Positions 37,905 to 55,648 of a DNA stretch of 64,000 nucleotides are shown piece by piece (the stretch's first letter is position 1; the number at the start of each line of letters is the position of its first letter). A program made the translations under genes and the position numbers. The stretch is from Mariniblastus sp. (lineage in GTDB: Bacteria > Planctomycetota > Planctomycetia > Pirellulales > Pirellulaceae): positions 1 through 64,000 of the forward strand of contig WTFU01000048.1 of NCBI GenBank assembly GCA_011523945.1. The letters run 5' to 3'. The notes beneath the pieces were generated by a model. The model searched no databases, was not told the DNA's origin, and was given only the letters and a program-made list of their open reading frames with translations.

Positions 37905-39593
37905 TCAAAACGGCTGGGTGAAGGAGCTATTGACGATCGTTGTTATTTGAGAAGCATTCAACTCCGTACCATCATTCATCAGATTGTTGCTAGTGGACAC
38001 GTGATTGAGACCTAAATTATGTCCAATTTCATGAGCGACTACTCGAGCCACTACATCTCTTCCCCCGAGAAAGCCTGGCAAATTATCACCAACATGCATC
38101 GTGATTCCATTACTTGCTAAATAGGCTAAGCCGTTCGCTGTATTTTCCGTCGTATCAGCAAATCCGGCGGCAATTTCAACGAAGTACATATCAATAATCA
38201 AACTGGATGAATCGCCAACCCCTGCAGCATCACCGGCATTAACAATTGTCGTAAGGTCGCTGTTCGGCCGAGTCCCGCCATTACCAATGTTCGCGAACGT
38301 ATTGTTATAAGTTTGTGGAGACAGCCACTCAACATCCACTTGAGCTTGCAGATAAATCTCATCAACCAACCGTTTGATCTCTGCTTCTTCTACCGCCGTT
38401 CCCAGGAACTCCGCGGTGTTCGAGCCATCTGTATTTGAAACAATGATTGGATTTATCGTAACGCGCTCGATCACATCGGCTTGAGCTACGCGATCGCCAT
38501 CTGTGAATCGAAAGTTTTCCGTAGCATTGGCGAGATCAGTCCCCTCGACGTCGAGGGTATCGTCGACCACCAATTCATCACCGTTTAAGGTGATATTGAA
38601 TCTACCAAACGCAAAACCAAAAACGACGTAATCAATACCGTCGCCTGCATCAACGGCGTCATCGCCAAATCCCGGGATAATGTAGTCATTGCCACCTCCC
38701 CCGGAAATTGTATCATCGCCCAACTGACCGGCTAAATAATCATTGCCAGCACCACTGATAAGAGAATCGCTCCCATTTTGACCGTGCATTCGATTTTCGC
38801 CGTCGCCGCCGGTTACCTGATCGTCACCATCACCGCCATAAAAAATATTCAATCCCAAGCCGCCCGAAAGAACGTCGTTCCCCGTCCCGCCAAGAACTAA
38901 ATCAGCGTCAGCAGGATCCGTAGCACCGGGCAATCCTCCATCACCTAAACTGACCACATCATCCCCGCCAAGAGGAAATACTTGATCGGCACCATCTCCC
39001 CCAAAAATTATATCTACCTCCGAACCGCCAAAAATCAAATCAGCGCCCTCATCTCCGAACAGCCGATTTAACCCTTCTCCTCCAAAAACCCTGTCATTTC
39101 CTATACCACCTTCTATTTCATCTGCGCCTGGCCCGCCTATCAAACGATCGTCACCGCCATCGCCGGCAATAGTATCGTCCCCGTCACCACCATTGACTAC
39201 ATCGATTCCAATGCCGCCTATCAGCGTATCGTTTCCACCGTTACCAAGAATCAGACTTTCGACCGGAGTTTCATTAACGAACTCATCATCTCCGTCAAAC
39301 CCAATAAAGATGACCTTGGATACAGCTGATTTGGAAAAACTTTGATCTTCAAAACCATCCAAGCGCGCTCGATAAGTTTCACCACTCGCCTCAAAAAACC
39401 CACCAACATTCGCCAGTGCATCTCCGGCAATCGTCACTTCGCCAGACGAAAAATAAATGCCGGCCAATAAGTTTCGAGATTCTAAGTGTTGAAAGCTCAA
39501 ATTGTTTAACTTGGCAGCACGCCTGCGATTTCCAGATTGTGTTCTTTGCTGTTTCGCTCGCTTAATCGCCGCCTTGAAAAAATTCATCATCAT
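37905..39593 (-). CDS. RTX-repeat protein with C-terminal metzincin-type peptidase
   Basis: A 562-residue protein. The N-terminus is basic and holds LESRNLLAG (about residues 37-45), a variant of the LEPR-XLL motif common at the start of large exported planctomycete proteins. Residues about 117-335 are calcium-binding RTX nonapeptides such as GGNGNDTLIG and GGDGDDTIAG. The C-terminal 190 residues carry a zinc-peptidase site HEIGHNLGLNH (His521, Glu522, His525, His531) with a Met-turn at Met539, the metzincin pattern. Usually in such proteases the peptidase comes before the RTX repeats, so the order is reversed. A secreted, calcium-stabilised protease is inferred. Confidence 0.82.
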   Translation of the reverse strand: MMMNFFKAAIKRAKQQRTQSGNRRRAAKLNNLSFQHLESRNLLAGIYFSSGEVTIAGDALANVGGFFEASGETYRARLDGFEDQSFSKSAVSKVIFIGFDGDDEFVNETPVESLILGNGGNDTLIGGIGIDVVNGGDGDDTIAGDGGDDRLIGGPGADEIEGGIGNDRVFGGEGLNRLFGDEGADLIFGGSEVDIIFGGDGADQVFPLGGDDVVSLGDGGLPGATDPADADLVLGGTGNDVLSGGLGLNIFYGGDGDDQVTGGDGENRMHGQNGSDSLISGAGNDYLAGQLGDDTISGGGGNDYIIPGFGDDAVDAGDGIDYVVFGFAFGRFNITLNGDELVVDDTLDVEGTDLANATENFRFTDGDRVAQADVIERVTINPIIVSNTDGSNTAEFLGTAVEEAEIKRLVDEIYLQAQVDVEWLSPQTYNNTFANIGNGGTRPNSDLTTIVNAGDAAGVGDSSSLIIDMYFVEIAAGFADTTENTANGLAYLASNGITMHVGDNLPGFLGGRDVVARVVAHEIGHNLGLNHVSTSNNLMNDGTELNASQITTIVNSSFTQPF

Positions 39594-42787: not shown

Positions 42788-45526
42788 TTAACCGTTCCTG
42801 ATTTTTTCAACTCTCACTGCACAAACTTTATATTCACCCGTACCCGTCACTTGATCCCCCGCATCGTTGGTTAAGAGATTGGCCCTGGATTCGGAAAAAT
42901 GCATCGGCATCCAGATACACCCGGGTCGCATACGTGGAGACACCCACACTTCTGCTTCTACCTCACCTCGACGAGACAATACGCGAACCGTTTCCCCGTG
43001 CACCAGATCCAACTTTCTCGCGTCACTGCGATGCATTTCAATAAAATTATTGCGTTGTTTTGCAACTGGACCTGCATCTCGCCGTGTCTGCGTAGCACTA
43101 TTGTAATGGTAAAGTGTACGGCCCGTCGAAAGCACCAATGGGTATTCGTTGTCTGGCAGTTCTGCACTCGGGCGATAGTCAACCACTTGAAATGGCGCTC
43201 GGCCGATCATGGGGCCATCGATATGTAACGTTGGCGTACCCGGATGTAATTCATCCGGACATGGCCACTGGAGCCCTGCCACATTATCCTCCAGTCGTTG
43301 GTGAGAAATTCCTGCTATCTTAGGTGTCAATGATGCGTACTCAGTAAAAACTTCACCCGCATCTTTATAATTTGGCATTGGATAACCAGCCGATCGAGCA
43401 ACGTCACACAAGATCTGCCAATCTTCGCGCGCCTCACCAGGCGGGTTCACTGACTTGCGAACTCGCTGCACCCTACGATCACTATTGGTAAAAACTCCAT
43501 CTTTTTCGGCAAAGCAGGCACCTGGCAGAATAACATCGGCAAACCGCGTCGTCTCATTGTGAAAGATCTCCTGACAAACGACGAATTCGCAATTATTTAA
43601 TCCGACTTCTACTTTGGTAACATTTGGTTCAGAAATCACAATGTCTTCACCCATCACATAGACGGCCTTAAGATTGCCGACCGCCATTTCCTTCATCATG
43701 ACATTGAGATTCATGCCGTTATTTGGCGATAAATCTACACCCCAGGCACTCTCAAATCTCTCTCGAACTTCAGAATCCGTAACGGGTTGATACCCCGGAT
43801 AAAAGATGGGGGTCGCGCCCGCATCATTGGCACCCTGGACGTTGTTTTGCCCCCTCAATGGGTTCATCCCCGCCGAACGAACACCTAGATGCCCGGTCAT
43901 TAGCACTAGATTCGCCAAACAATAAACGTTGTCGGTGCCGTGCGTATGCTCGGTAATCCCTAAAGTGTAGTAGATACCGGCATGTTTTGTAGTTGCGTAA
44001 AGACGCGCTGCCAGCCGAATATCGTCTGCGGGAACTCCCGTAATTTCTTCTGCCTTTTCGGGATTGTACTTCGCCACCTTTTCCGCCATCGCATCAAAAC
44101 CAACCGTATTGGCTTCAATAAAATCGCGATCATGAAGCCCTTCCGCAATAATCACGTGCGCCATTGATGACAACAGCCAAACATCTGTCCCAGGCTTCAA
44201 TTGAAGATGCAAATCCGCCATCTCCGCCAACCAGATTTCACGAGGATCCGCAACAATTAATTTCGCGCCTTTCTGCCGTGCCCGCTTCATTTCCATCGCG
44301 ATGATCGGGTGCGCTTCGGTCGTATTCGAACCGATCACAAACATTAACTCAGAGTCACGTATTTCATCGATCGAATTAGTCATGGCTCCCGCTCCGAACA
44401 TTGTCACCAGACCGGCGACGGTGGGAGCATGTCAGGTGGCTGCACACTGATGGACATTGTTAGTTCCAAAAACAGCTCTCGACAATTTCTGCATAAGGTA
44501 ATTTTCTTCTCCGGTACACCGTGAAGATGAAATGAAGCCAAGCGAATCTGCTCCATGCTTTTCCTTTACCGCATTTAAACCGCTGGCAACTGTTGTTAAC
44601 GCCTCCTCCCAGGTAGCGGGATATAATTCCCCGTCCGCTCCGCGTACTAAAGGCGTTGTGATCCGATCTTCGTGATGAATGAAATCATAGGCAAACCTCC
44701 CTTTCACACAGAGATTCCCGTCATTTAACGTCTCCCCCGGTTCCGGACTCGTAATTTTTACAACGCGATCATTGTGCGTATGCAGATCAAGCTGACAGCC
44801 AACTCCACAAAAATTACACGTCGAACGAGTCACTTCGGTTTCAAGCGTTACGAGATTCGCAGGCGCTTTCTTCTCAATCAAAGCTCCCGTCGGGCAGGTC
44901 GCAATGCAACCGCCACACAGCTCACAGGTGGTGTCAAGAAGCCCACGATTACCAGCAGTGGCAATCGTCGTCTCACCACCACGATTGGATAAGGTAATCG
45001 CGTTAACTGCTTCAACCTCATCGCAATAACGCGTACACCGGGCACATAGAATGCAAAGTTCCGGATTGAATTCAATATATGGATTCACGTCCTCTGGACG
45101 ACCTGCGCGAGGAGCGTTCACAGGCTCAAGTGGTAATGGATCAATCGCCTTGCACAGTTCTCTCAACTGGTTGCCGTTCCCTGTCGCTACGGGCAGACCA
45201 GTTTCATCCAACTGATGATCAGCCATATACATGCTGTAGAGAATCGTCCGGTGCTTCTCGATCCGATCCGATTCTGTTGTCACCTTCATTTCGGGCTGAA
45301 CTTTCCAAGCGCACCCAGGTTGTAATCTTCGCTGCCCCTCAACTTCAACTAAACAGACGCGACAGGCCCCCGCCGGCTCGAGTCGGGTGTCGTGGCAAAG
45401 CGTTGGAATTTCGATCCCCTCGCGCCGCGCAACATCGACAACGGTCTCTCCAAAAATCGCCCGGCAAGATTTGCCATTAATTTCAATTGAAAACGTCTCG
45501 ACGCGTTTTTGATTCGGATAATTCAT
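42788..45526 (-). CDS. fdhA: Formate dehydrogenase alpha subunit, selenocysteine-containing
   Basis: One 912-residue chain if the in-frame TGA at 44432-44434 is read as selenocysteine 365. The enzyme oxidises formate to CO2 at a molybdenum or tungsten bis-pterin centre. N-terminal 2Fe-2S ligands are Cys44, 55, 58 and 72. Two 4Fe-4S motifs follow (Cys158/161/164/168 and 201/204/207/211). The active-site 4Fe-4S ligands are Cys237, 240, 244 and 273. The TGA lies between NNVHQCAAT and HAPTVAGLV, exactly where relatives have the Cys or Sec metal ligand. The rest (AGAMTNSIDEI, GSNTTEAHPI, MRPGCIWMP) is intact on both sides. It lies 57 bases after the NuoF-like gene. Read without Sec it would look like two broken genes. 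Confidence 0.9.
44385..44434 (-). promoter_or_regulatory. Bacterial SECIS element with UGA-Sec codon
   Basis: Read on the minus strand, UGA (44434-44432) is followed 12 bases later by GUCGCC, loop GGUCU and GGUGAC, a six-pair stem (44403-44419). An outer GCUCCC (44428-44423) can pair with GGGAGC (44390-44385). The E. coli fdhF element has the same GGUCU loop and an upper stem 11 bases from UGA. This supports Sec insertion by SelB. Confidence 0.85.
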
Positions 45527-45583: not shown

Positions 45584-47098
45584 TCAATCTCTGGTTTTAA
45601 AGGCATCGGGAAAATGTTTCCGCGCCGATTCCAAGGGCTTCGCCGCTACCATACCAAGTCCGCAAATCGAGCCTTCTTCCATTTCCCAGCCGACATCGCC
45701 CGTTAATTCCAACGATACCGGATCCCCCAACTGGATAAATTGATCCACTTGCCGTCTGATATACTGCGTTCCAATTCGACAAGGCGCGCACTGGCCACAA
45801 CTCTCACGCTCAAAAAACTCCAATTGCCAGGCTGCCGCCTTGGCCATATCGACAGTATCGTTAATCACCACAACGCCTGCGCTGCCCAACATCGAACCCG
45901 CATCAGCAAGGTGTTTATAATCTAATGGCAACGCCCGCTCCGAGATCGGAAGAAACCCCGAAGATGCGCCGCCCGGCGAAAATGCAATTGGATTTCCTAC
46001 ATACCCTCCAGCGGCGTCCGCCAACTCATCGAGCGACACACCCAACGGCAACTCGTAAACTCCGGGGGCAACGACGTGCCCGGAAATACAATAGAGCTTA
46101 CTTCCGGCTTCGGTTTTCCCAAGCTTCCGAAACCATTCTCCTCCCCGATGAATAATCGCCGGCACGCACGCAATGGTCTCAACGTTATGAATCAAACTCG
46201 GCTTACCTCGAAAACCGGATTCGGTAGGGTAGGGCGGCTTCAACCGTGGCATTCCCCGCTTGCCCTCAAGTGATTCCAGCAAAGCTGTCTCTTCTCCACA
46301 GATATAAGCACCGTGCCCTTTAACGATTGTAAATTCAAAATCTTTAAGTGCGTCTTTTGACTCCTCCAATGCACGTTCGATCGCACGATATTCGTTCGTA
46401 TATTCTCCCCGTATGTAAATATAAATTTGGTTTGACTCGATCACGAAAGCGGCGATTGCAAGCCCCTCTAACATTTTGTGGCTTTGACGGAGAATCAATT
46501 CACGATCTTTGAATGTCCCCGGTTCGGCTTCATCCGCATTGCAAATAACATAACGCTCCGTTTCAGCTTGCTGGCGAACCGAAGTCCACTTGAAATGGGC
46601 TGGAAACCCGGCCCCGCCGCGTCCCTGAAGACCGGATGCTTCCAAAACTGCGATGACATCCTCGGGATTCATCTCTCTGACTTTTGCCAACGCCGAGTAA
46701 TTCAAATCGACGTCGCCCGCAAGATTCATAGCCAGGTCATTCGGTGGAGAAATAGCGGTTTGGTGTTTCGCGTAAGTCACCAATTCCATATCTTCGTCGA
46801 GCGAAGCGGGAGCTAAATCGCATTGCCCCAAACAACTTACCCGCTCCACCGACTTCCCCGCAGCGGCCAGTTCAGTTGCCAGAGAATCAGCACCAAACAT
46901 CTGACAGGTCAGGCCGTCACATAAACGAATCCTCTTCCCCGGTTCACGAAGCAGAGTATAAAACAAGCCGGTTCCCCAGATATCGGCTTCGGCTATTCCC
47001 GTCTGCCTGTGAACCTCTCTTACCGATTCCTCTGTTACTCCCCCCGCATGCTCAAGCAGTTCAATGATTTTCTCACGATTGGCATTCGGTTTTTGCAT
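45584..47098 (-). CDS. fdhB: NAD-linked formate dehydrogenase beta subunit (NuoE-NuoF like)
   Basis: A 504-residue fused electron-transfer subunit. The first 130 residues are NuoE-like, with a thioredoxin-fold 2Fe-2S site (RLCDGLTCQMFGA and SCLGQCDLAP). The rest is NuoF-like: NAD/FMN site GRGGAGFPAHFKW, VICNADEAEPGTFKDREL, GAYICGEETALLESLEG, and a 4Fe-4S motif SCGQCAPCRIGT. It passes electrons from the alpha subunit to NAD. The start ATG has AGGA six bases ahead. It is the first gene of the fdhB-fdhA unit and divergent from proB. The fused arrangement matches soluble NAD-dependent formate dehydrogenases. Confidence 0.92.
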   Translation of the reverse strand: MQKPNANREKIIELLEHAGGVTEESVREVHRQTGIAEADIWGTGLFYTLLREPGKRIRLCDGLTCQMFGADSLATELAAAGKSVERVSCLGQCDLAPASLDEDMELVTYAKHQTAISPPNDLAMNLAGDVDLNYSALAKVREMNPEDVIAVLEASGLQGRGGAGFPAHFKWTSVRQQAETERYVICNADEAEPGTFKDRELILRQSHKMLEGLAIAAFVIESNQIYIYIRGEYTNEYRAIERALEESKDALKDFEFTIVKGHGAYICGEETALLESLEGKRGMPRLKPPYPTESGFRGKPSLIHNVETIACVPAIIHRGGEWFRKLGKTEAGSKLYCISGHVVAPGVYELPLGVSLDELADAAGGYVGNPIAFSPGGASSGFLPISERALPLDYKHLADAGSMLGSAGVVVINDTVDMAKAAAWQLEFFERESCGQCAPCRIGTQYIRRQVDQFIQLGDPVSLELTGDVGWEMEEGSICGLGMVAAKPLESARKHFPDAFKTRD

Positions 47099-48527: not shown

Positions 48528-49790
48528 ATGAACATTGTTCAAACGATGGAAGAATTGGGTCAGCGTGCCCGAGCCTCGGCAAGGATTCTGGCCACAACTG
48601 ACGACCTCGCCAAATCAAAGGCCATCCGGTCTGCAGCTACAATAATTCTAAAACAATCTAAGCAAATTTTGATTGCGAATCGACGCGACCAAGATGCGGC
48701 GGAAGAAGCTGATCTGCCGTCTGCGATGCTGGATCGACTAAAACTAAATGAAACGAGGATCGAGAGCATTGCAACAGGTTTGAACGCGATCGCCGATCTT
48801 CCCAATCCTGTTGGTGAAGTGATTTCTACGACGGAACGTCCCAATGGCCTCCGCATTGAACGCGTACGTACACCGCTCGGTGTCATCGGAGTCATCTACG
48901 AAAGCCGACCCAACGTTACTGCTGACGCGGGGGCACTCTGTTTAAAATCCGGAAATGCCGTTATTCTTCGAGGCGGTAGTGACTCCCACTATTCCTCTCA
49001 AGCAATCCACCAATGCCTTATAGAAGGTCTTCGCTCGGCGAATCTCCCCGTCGCCTCCATTCAATTGGTTCCCACCACTGATCGGGCTGCAGTCGGTGAG
49101 ATGTTAAAAGGTCTGAATAGCAACCTCGACGTTCTCGTTCCTCGCGGAGGTAAAAGCTTGGTCTCTCGAGTCCAAAATGAATCCCGCATACCTGTTTTCG
49201 CTCACCTCGATGGTATTTGCCACGTCTACGTCGACCGCGAAGCCACTCTGGAAATGGCTCTTGAGATTGTTTTGAATTCAAAAATGCGACGGCCTGGTAT
49301 TTGTGGAGCGGCGGAAACACTTCTGATCGACAAGTCTTGGCCTGACCAACATGTACGGGAGTTAGTCACAAGTCTCCAGCAGGCCGGGTGTGAAGTACGA
49401 GCAGACGCATTGATACGCAAAAACGTCGACGGTTGCCTGGCTGCCGACGAGTCCGATTGGAAAACCGAATACCTTGACGCAATCATCTCGATCAAACTCG
49501 TCAATGGTCTAGACGAGGCAATTGAACATATCAACCAATACAGTTCCCACCATACCGAATCGATCGTTACCGCAAACGATGAAAACGCTGCCCGATTTTT
49601 AAAAGAAATTGATTCAGCAATCCTTTTGCATAATGCTTCAACTCAATTTGCCGATGGTGGGGAATTTGGGATGGGGGCCGAAATCGGAATTGCAACCGGA
49701 AAGATGCATGCCCGCGGCCCAGTAGGTGTTGAACAACTGACTTGTTTTAACTACCGCGTGCATGGCTCCGGGCAGATACGCCCCAGTTAA
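48528..49790 (+). CDS. proA: Gamma-glutamyl phosphate reductase
   Basis: A 420-residue NADPH-dependent enzyme for the second step of proline synthesis, of the aldehyde dehydrogenase fold. Visible are [43 protein letters not shown], and the catalytic cysteine region [17 protein letters not shown], then [11 protein letters not shown] and [27 protein letters not shown]. The length is normal. It follows proB in the same direction. Its stop overlaps the convergent fdhD stop by four bases. Confidence 0.97.
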
Positions 49791-50650
49791 AAATCTGAAC
49801 CTAATTGATCTTCACCGGAGTATATATTGAATCGCTCTGCTGAAGTAAAGCCGATCAAGATCATATTGAATTCTCTAGCGAGTTCGACAGCCAAACTGGA
49901 CGGGGCGCCTACGGCCACCAGCATTGGAATTCTCGCGACAATCGCCTTTTGCATCAATTCGAAACTGGCTCTCCCGCTGACAACCAAGAGATGTCCGCTT
50001 AAACACAGCTCTCCCGTTTGGTCGGATTTCGCCAGAATCTGTGCCCCGATTAATTTATCCACTGCGTTATGCCGCCCCACATCTTCCCGAGCAGCCACAA
50101 ACTTTCCCTTAAGATCAAATAGCCCGGATGCGTGTAAACCACCCGTCACGTCAAACACTCCCTGATGTATACGTAACTTATCAGGCAGCTTAAAAATCAA
50201 ATCTCGTTCGATCGTTACAGATTCAGTAATGGGTTTAACATCTTGGTTTCTCAAGGTCTCCAAACTCGCCTTCCCACAGACGCCGCAACTGGAGGTTGCA
50301 TAAAAATGTCGCTGAAATTTCGCCGGATCGAATTCCGCAGATTCACTCAATTCCACAAAAATCGAATTGCCGACGTCGCCCCCCTCCGGGATTGCACCAT
50401 CGGATTCAAATCCAACCAAATCACTAGGCGATTTAATAATGCCCTCGGATAATAGAAAACCGGCAGCCAATTCTGAATCGTTTCCAGGTGTTCTCATCGT
50501 AATGGAAACATTTTTACTACGTCTCTCTCCGGCGGAGCCAAAGACGACACGTATTTCCAACGGCTCTTCCGTCGCAATTTTGTCACTGAATCGCACAACC
50601 TGGCCACGTTGAAATTTCGAGATCTCGAATTCTTTATTCTGCAATGCCAT
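49787..50650 (-). CDS. fdhD: Formate dehydrogenase accessory sulfurtransferase FdhD
   Basis: A 287-residue maturation protein that moves sulfur from the IscS desulfurase to the molybdenum cofactor, making the sulfido ligand needed by formate dehydrogenase. The key motif is [16 protein letters not shown], with the reactive CxxC pair. [28 protein letters not shown] and [12 protein letters not shown] complete the family pattern. Finding it two genes from fdhBA supports a functional formate dehydrogenase and argues against fdhA being a pseudogene. The ATG at 50650 is on the minus strand. Confidence 0.95.
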
Positions 50651-54310: not shown

Positions 54311-54808
54311 TTACTCTCTCCTCCCAATCGCTTCGGAGCTAACCACCTCAAACCCAAAATATTCCCAGCCTTTAAGCCAGCGAATTGCGTTAAAGTCAAA
54401 TTGCAATTGAACACAGACAGGGTCACCCGAGTCGATCGTATCAAGCAATCCAGAACTAACCGGCTCACCGTCCAAATCAGTCACGGATACCACCAAGCCG
54501 GTTTGAAAATCTTCTTCAGAGCACTGTGGAAAAAGATCGGCGAATACACGTCCAACTTCATCTTCAACCTGGCCGACAGTCAGCGTTGAATCCTTCGCTG
54601 CAAACCTTGCGCCATGTCGGGCTGCATTAGTAATCGACTGAGCAAGATTGATATATTGGGCCACGTCAGTCGCACCAAGCGACACTAGAATTAGCAAAGG
54701 AATTAACATCGCTGTTTCAACCGTCGCAGCTGCTCTTCGATTTCTCTTGAAACGTAGAGTCCTACGGCGGTGACTAAATAAATAATTTTTCATAACCTCT
54801 CCAATCAC
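54311..54808 (-). CDS. TadE-like minor pilin-like protein 2
   Basis: A 165-residue protein. After a basic N-terminus comes NRRAAATVETAMLIPLLILVSLGATDVAQYINLAQSITNAARHGARFA, the TadE-type hydrophobic helix followed by the conserved NAAR segment. The rest is a small exported domain. A GTG at 54808 overlaps the stop of the gene before it; an internal ATG at 54793 has GGAG five bases ahead and is an equally good start. It is part of the three-gene TadE/TadG unit. Confidence 0.82.
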   Translation of the reverse strand: MIGEVMKNYLFSHRRRTLRFKRNRRAAATVETAMLIPLLILVSLGATDVAQYINLAQSITNAARHGARFAAKDSTLTVGQVEDEVGRVFADLFPQCSEEDFQTGLVVSVTDLDGEPVSSGLLDTIDSGDPVCVQLQFDFNAIRWLKGWEYFGFEVVSSEAIGRRE

Positions 54809-55368
54809 TCACGACTCATAGAGGCAGAGCCGCGAATTTTTGCTCCGCAAAGGAACATCTCTGGCAACCACGTAATATCAGAGCAAGCTACCTCAATTGC
54901 CATAACGATTTTTTCACCGGACTCAGGGGTTACTGTAAAGCTTGGCTCAATATCTATCGTTACAATTTCTGAGTCGTTACTATTTGCAATCGTTGGCTTG
55001 AGAATTTCACGCACAAAAGATTCAGAGTCATCCGAAGATTGCGTCGTTACCAACGTCGCGTGCCGGCAGCCCTCGCGCGCTGCGTTCGTCAACGCCTGCT
55101 TGACCATCATCATGCGTGCAAATTCAACCGCACCAAAAATGATGAACAGAATAAAAGGCGCGACCAGAGCAAACTCAATCGTGGCAACACCACAACGACG
55201 CAATCGATGAACACTGGAGACGTGGCCGCGCTTGATAAAATTACCGGTAACACAAGACGTGTTAAAGAATTTGCAAACGCCAGAGATTGAACGTGATAAC
55301 ATTAGCCCGATTCGGAATTCCCCAACCGGACGGCGGCCAACGAGTAAGTTTTTACTTAAGCAATACAT
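54805..55368 (-). CDS. TadE-like minor pilin-like protein 1
   Basis: A 187-residue protein with RRCGVATIEFALVAPFILFIIFGAVEFARMMMVKQALTNAAREGCRHA, the TadE helix with the ATIEFAL and NAAREG motifs. The 55-residue leader before this is longer than usual. I chose ATG 55368 because AGAGGGG lies five bases ahead. It is the first gene of the unit, so a promoter should lie just upstream, though none was obvious to me in 55405-55648. Confidence 0.8.
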   Translation of the reverse strand: MYCLSKNLLVGRRPVGEFRIGLMLSRSISGVCKFFNTSCVTGNFIKRGHVSSVHRLRRCGVATIEFALVAPFILFIIFGAVEFARMMMVKQALTNAAREGCRHATLVTTQSSDDSESFVREILKPTIANSNDSEIVTIDIEPSFTVTPESGEKIVMAIEVACSDITWLPEMFLCGAKIRGSASMSRE

Positions 55369-55648
55369 AGAAGCCCCTCTGGCGGACGAGCAAATCGCAC
55401 ACAATTCCAGTTTTTATTTTCAGGTAACCTGGCGATCTCGCATCGAGAGACCCATGGCTTTGCGTCCCGACCTCACGATCGGTTTGCCTTTATCTCAAAA
55501 CTCAAACGAGCTCCAAGTAAAATTTGTTTATTTAGTTGCTTTCAATCGACGCACTGACAGTAAATTTATGAATTAAGCAAAACGTTGGAAAATAGTATTT
55601 TTTGTGATTGTCTCCGTCATCAAGACAGCGTCGCAAACGACATTCGGA

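Follow-up and report, generated by a model that had tools for sequence, protein, structure and literature searches.

FdhA and SelD are the most widespread bacterial selenoproteins, according to parts of two studies (PMC5029168, PMC1794560), and a passage of the second states that no change from cysteine (Cys) to selenocysteine (Sec) was seen in FdhA (PMC1794560). In planctomycetes, sections of a 2016 paper describe full sets of Sec-insertion genes in P1, P2, G. obscuriglobus and I. pallida (PMC4807772). In P1, presented there as an undescribed genus with 8.5 Mb, a Sec-type fdhA and nuoEF form an operon, which is also conserved in Plesiocystis pacifica, and the authors of those sections infer a transfer between P1 and this myxobacterium (PMC4807772). 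A literature search of open-licence full texts retrieved no paper whose title or abstract treats the fdhA of the genus considered here.

The window, i.e., the whole stretch of 64,000 nucleotides that was analysed, carries an fdhA with an in-frame TGA (Table 1). With a probability of about 0.96, we consider its product to be the catalytic subunit of a molybdopterin formate dehydrogenase linked to NAD, with Sec as the metal-binding residue, inserted through a GGUCU hairpin and SelB. The initial annotation had already proposed a Sec formate dehydrogenase, and this interpretation is supported by the sel genes of the genome, the alignment of the residue and the SECIS of the relatives.

Table 1. Location of the formate dehydrogenase genes and of the elements associated with Sec in the window.
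Feature	Position	Strand	Evidence or domains
fdhA, formate dehydrogenase alpha subunit, 912 residues, Sec at 365	42788..45526	-	TIGR01591, Pfam, dN/dS
In-frame TGA, codon 365, read as Sec	44432..44434	-	Frame; alignment to E. coli fdhF; relatives
SECIS apical hairpin in the mRNA, 6-bp stem (44414-44419 / 44403-44408), GGUCU loop 44409-44413	44403..44419	-	Covariance model, covariation
Possible outer 5-bp stem (44424-44428 / 44391-44395)	44391..44428	-	Predicted fold of the window
fdhB, NuoE-like [2Fe-2S] and NuoF-like FMN/NADH fusion	45584..47098	-	PF01257, PF01512, PF10531, PF10589
fdhD, accessory sulfurtransferase for formate dehydrogenase	49787..50650	-	TIGR00129, PF02634

The fdhA reading frame and codon 365

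The sole interruption of the 912-codon frame is the TGA of codon 365, flanked by NNVHQCAAT and HAPTVAGLV, and the frame is open on either side, as initially described. Read with Sec, the product reaches 796.1 bits with TIGR01591 (curated cut-off 666.25), and its Pfam content runs from N-terminal Fe-S domains to C-terminal molybdopterin domains ([2Fe-2S], ferredoxin-like, Fe4S4, molybdopterin and dinucleotide-binding). The TGA was proposed to occupy the Cys/Sec site, in agreement with the alignments, in which codon 365 stands opposite TGA codon 140, the Sec codon of E. coli K-12 fdhF, and residue 365 opposite a Cys of the solved chain 6tg9_A, number 386 when counted along the alignment. We take this chain to be Rhodobacter FdsA, from an enzyme that is presumably NAD-linked, and its Cys 386 to be the metal ligand.

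The relatives share this arrangement. In 24 of the 28 same-genus genomes (the window's own included), a full-length fdhA is found, 77-100% identical and with exactly one inner stop, a TGA; some records of this genus-level group are labelled uncultured Pirellulaceae or Mariniblastus sp. The four other genomes provided a fragment (G023), distant matches only (G005 and G020) or no match (G021). The presence of this single TGA at codon 365 in 24/24 full-length orthologues, together with the covariation of the inner stem described below, places the observation beyond chance. A wider set comprised 104 distinct rows, consisting of the 24 same-genus genes, six distant genome loci and the best 80 of 582 named loci, minus six duplicates. 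In these rows, including the best 80 of 582, we find TGA at codon 365 in 74 (the window's own copy among them), TGC in 17 and TGT in 13, and no other residue is encoded; TGA stands where homologues have Cys or Sec. Two rows were scored with two stops, the second being the end of the gene.

As anticipated, automatic calling splits the gene: a mechanical ORF caller returns two ORFs, of 364 and 539 aa. This outcome is what a true stop would produce, if a mutation or an assembly error had broken fdhA or divided it into two separate proteins. Nevertheless, the same lone TGA recurs in all 24 orthologues from separate assemblies, and dN/dS is low on both sides of it (0.017-0.049 against seven same-genus orthologues, with dS >1 in six of the seven). 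By this measure both halves are under purifying selection, and a true stop has a practically negligible probability. A further speculation, from the domain layout, is that the UGA acts as a switch, so that without selenium translation would stop at 364 and release a truncated Fe-S fragment with a role of its own. Such a product would retain the N-terminal Fe-S and Fe4S4 domains, but no sign of a separate role for the fragment was found here, and we give this idea next to no weight compared with a single Sec enzyme.

Among the matches listed, five distant partial homologues (G031:C46, G035:C66, G035:C688, G036:C701 and G046:C45) also contain one in-frame TGA each; these could possibly be other selenoproteins or plain stops.

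A constrained hairpin downstream of the TGA

The 6-bp stem with a GGUCU loop, reported to start 12 nt past the UGA, was recovered. With the T of TGA taken as position 0, positions 15-20 pair with 26-31 and the loop occupies 21-25. Among the 74 Sec rows (here and below, rows that include the best 80 of 582), the loop reads GGTCT in 70 and GGGCT in four, whereas just 2/30 Cys rows have GGTCT. This bias is not owed to the encoded protein, since the rows encoding Ala-Gly-Leu at the loop still differ (GGTCT in 69/73 Sec vs 1/15 Cys). All six stem pairs are formed in 68/74 Sec rows, six rows having at least one unpaired stem pair. As for relatives that might share the TGA and lack a SECIS, 65 of the 74 TGA rows (best 80 of 582 included) combine the perfect stem with GGUCU, and the other nine have a GGGCT loop or one to two unpaired stem pairs, a single one (L085) having both.

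Positions 17 and 29, which face each other in the stem and are both third codon positions, are paired in 74/74 Sec rows (best 80 of 582 included), while shuffles, which take no account of relatedness, give a mean of 35.9 and reach 74 in 0/5000 cases. The pair is found as C-G, G-C, U-A, A-U and U-G, represents the largest excess among the 231 third-position pairs tested and changes state at least 13 times on a quick, unrooted tree. Covariation signal is absent from stem pairs 15/31 and 16/30 in the Sec rows because one side is invariant. In the Cys rows, drawn from the same set with the best 80 of 582, 17/29 is paired in 16/30 (shuffle mean 11.2, reached by 196/5000), and 15/31 and 18/28 also exceed most shuffles (reached by 21 and 57 of 5000, respectively). 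This residual pairing perhaps reflects Sec ancestors or shared descent. In the sequences compared, the constraint on loop and stem is far stronger where codon 365 is TGA than where it is Cys, which also stands against a true stop at codon 365.

A divergent case is L085, an Actinomycetota fdhA with TGA but with the GGGCT loop and one broken stem pair, in a genome with selB; its near relative L080 has Cys at codon 365 and almost identical downstream letters. The L085 site may be a decaying Sec, a newly gained Sec or an error.

A covariance model was trained on 36 diverse rows, chosen from the 49 Sec rows (best 80 of 582 included) below 76% identity, with the window and all 24 loci of its genus held out; the training rows include two Planctomycetaceae, L053 and L069, that are 75-76% identical and may or may not belong to the same genus. 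In the window, the hairpin scores 64.7 bits with this model (E 6.4e-13) and the second-best site 10.9 bits; in the whole genome, the hairpin is retrieved with an E of 5.4e-11. No second significant SECIS of the FDH type was found in the genome among the 150 of 1707 first-look candidates that were scored, the next one having 19.1 bits (E 0.7). The Rfam model SECIS_3 (RF01989) places its top match in a 1001-base stretch at the hairpin, with 31.4 bits (E 6.8e-5) against a gathering score of 63, and at the gathering threshold Rfam finds no SECIS in the window. The folding energy of the single sequence is similarly unremarkable (z = -0.75; 36/200 shuffles fold as well). Over the 36 relatives, in contrast, the whole structure is paired in 83.8% of cells, vs 27.5-52.0% when shifted by one to three columns. 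Indeed, it is the comparative data, and not single-sequence folding, that carry the case for the hairpin.

The second, outer stem suggested by the initial annotation forms in the predicted fold of the window, but its pairing over the 36 relatives reaches 66.7% of cells vs 98.1% for the inner stem, and RNAalifold predicts the inner stem alone. The outer stem was therefore rejected as a well-conserved part of the SECIS.

Decoding genes, neighbouring genes and distribution of the locus

The assembly of the window genome comprises 5.4 Mb (91.87% complete, 1.39% contaminated). The search for the four decoding genes called for by the initial annotation found all of them above their cut-offs: tRNA-Sec (selC; 67.4 bits, anticodon tca), selA (588 bits), selB (369.7 bits) and selD (259.3 bits). 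They are spread over four contigs, none of which is the contig of the window, and selD sits in a 740-aa fusion frame without inner stop whose N-terminal half resembles, by eye, an NADH dehydrogenase. We counted tRNA-Sec only at 62 bits or more because the Rfam tRNA-Sec family also yields further matches, of about 47-54 bits, that exceed its cut-off; in 14/14 controls it gives matches, above the cut-off in five. Judging from this gene content, the genome is able to decode Sec.

Of the 24 same-genus genomes that carry the TGA gene, 22 have selB above the cut-off, 20 have selA and 22 have a tRNA-Sec at or above 62 bits, the three occurring together in 19/24. In G004, a genome 80% complete that has the TGA gene, selD is present and selA, selB and tRNA-Sec are all missing, likely due to its incompleteness. 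In another same-genus genome, a 370-aa SelD (G027:C267:877-1803) itself contains an in-frame TGA.

These genes bear on the possibility that the UGA is read as Cys or another residue, at least under scarce selenium, which would make the protein a part-time Cys enzyme. Cys is indeed the sole alternative at codon 365 (30/104 rows, including the best 80 of 582), but tRNA-Sec, SelA, SelB and SelD are all encoded and the hairpin is strongly constrained in TGA genes, making such a reading very improbable. Under the Sec reading, SelB with Sec-tRNA-Sec would bind the GGUCU hairpin within the coding sequence when the ribosome meets UGA 365, and would deliver Sec in place of termination, Sec being formed on tRNA-Sec by SelA with selenophosphate from SelD. 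FdhD would then ready the cofactor and FdhB would hand electrons to NAD. The open frame, the aligned residue, the constrained hairpin and the decoding genes can be read from the DNA itself, while Sec incorporation itself, what SelA, SelB, SelD and FdhD do, the partnership with NAD and the reaction's direction are inferred from what is established for these families.

Upstream of fdhA lies fdhB, whose 504-aa product is probably, from its domains and position, the partner subunit of FdhA. It adjoins fdhA and bears the FMN/NADH-type domains (PF01512, PF10589 and PF01257) of the partner in NAD-linked, complex-I-like formate dehydrogenases. The fdhD gene, which the initial annotation had placed nearby, is present, with two opposite-strand ORFs between it and fdhB-fdhA; it exceeds the cut-off of TIGR00129 (158.4 vs 140.9 bits) and falls slightly below that of NF001943 (266.2 vs 269 bits).

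Elsewhere in the window, a c-di-GMP-I-GGC riboswitch (RF03167; 55419-55497, minus strand; 68.8 bits vs a gathering score of 59) is located directly upstream of an ORF (54805-55404, minus strand) whose product resembles, by eye, a TadE-type pilus protein. Also by eye, the product of 37905-39593 (minus strand) has many GGxGxD-type repeats, and a motif resembling HExxHxxGxxH stands close to its end.

In the tree, which is quick and unrooted with several long branches that meet, the window falls within a 45-row clade in which 45/45 rows are Sec, and at least 12 changes between Sec and Cys are required over the whole tree (rows including the best 80 of 582). The record labels of this clade, from the best 80 of 582, comprise Planctomycetota, Myxococcota, Acidobacteriota, Rhodobacterales, Deltaproteobacteria and Neomarinimicrobiota. 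With relatives taken from the best 80 of 582 plus the genome loci, fdhB has a tblastn match (<=1e-8) in 41/45 loci of the Sec clade, and in one further locus (L027, genome G025) it was found in a longer stretch, about 2 kb further on. Of the remaining three, L069 is cut at fdhA by the contig end, and L064 and L072 have no fdhB match by tblastn in 3 kb of flank. In L133 (9190-11104), from the single-contig genome G025, transposase-like ORFs (by eye) part fdhA from fdhB.

These distributions might suggest that fdhB-fdhA is a laterally shared module, with Sec in all 45/45, that would move among Sec-decoding phyla without sel genes and stay locked to Sec while neighbouring groups repeatedly switch between Sec and Cys. 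We regard this idea as tentative and rather doubtful. In G025 (C1), selB (3.893 Mb), fdhA (3.928 Mb) and selA (3.967 Mb) are non-adjacent and lie inside 76 kb (3.893-3.969 Mb), with tRNA-Sec at 3.476 Mb; the proximity of the first three suggests some linkage and therefore lowers the odds of a module moving without sel genes.

Comparison with known systems

The initial annotation considered the locus a close match to E. coli fdhF. This stands for the loop, which has the same GGUCU letters at the same distance from the UGA, and for TGA codon 140, which corresponds to codon 365, but not for the surrounding sequence, as the 48 nt agree at 27/48. Moreover, in the stem predicted for E. coli, which closes on GGUC, one U is left unpaired, whereas the stem of the window consists of six continuous pairs. 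The match of FdhF (FDH-H; 1aa6) starts at residue 235 of the window protein, and FdhF therefore corresponds to the protein without its N-terminal Fe-S part. The alignment of 6tg9_A, in contrast, covers window residues 14-907, and its difference lies in the Cys of chain residue 386, opposite Sec365.

Another group of known relatives is formed by 21 loci (L052-L072, from the best 80 of 582) with Sec FdhA, among them Enhygromyxa, Polarisedimenticola and Acidobacteria bacterium Mor1; their proteins are 57.7-76.7% identical to that of the window. All 21 have TGA at codon 365 and 18/21 have an fdhB match; they differ in belonging mostly to other phyla, and in the GGGCT loop of L052 and L054.

Our results correct an annotation that would divide one enzyme into two, show the same Sec-type fdhA in 24 of 28 genomes of one genus-level group and add comparative evidence, in the form of third codon positions that covary, for a bacterial SECIS, leaving the knowledge of Sec coding unchanged. 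The expectation that the use of Sec by this lineage might be overlooked holds for naive ORF calling, but not for the literature, as sections of the 2016 paper already describe a Sec fdhA next to nuoEF in a planctomycete (PMC4807772). According to these sections, P1 resembles the window in its phylum, in its Sec fdhA accompanied by nuoE and nuoF and in having its Sec-insertion genes elsewhere; in the window, unlike P1 as described there (PMC4807772), NuoE and NuoF form one fused protein. Therefore, given the published Sec fdhA-nuoEF of P1 and the wide distribution of FdhA and SelD, the fdhA of the window is a well-supported but ordinary case within an enzyme family already known, and genes of its kind have been described before in planctomycetes.
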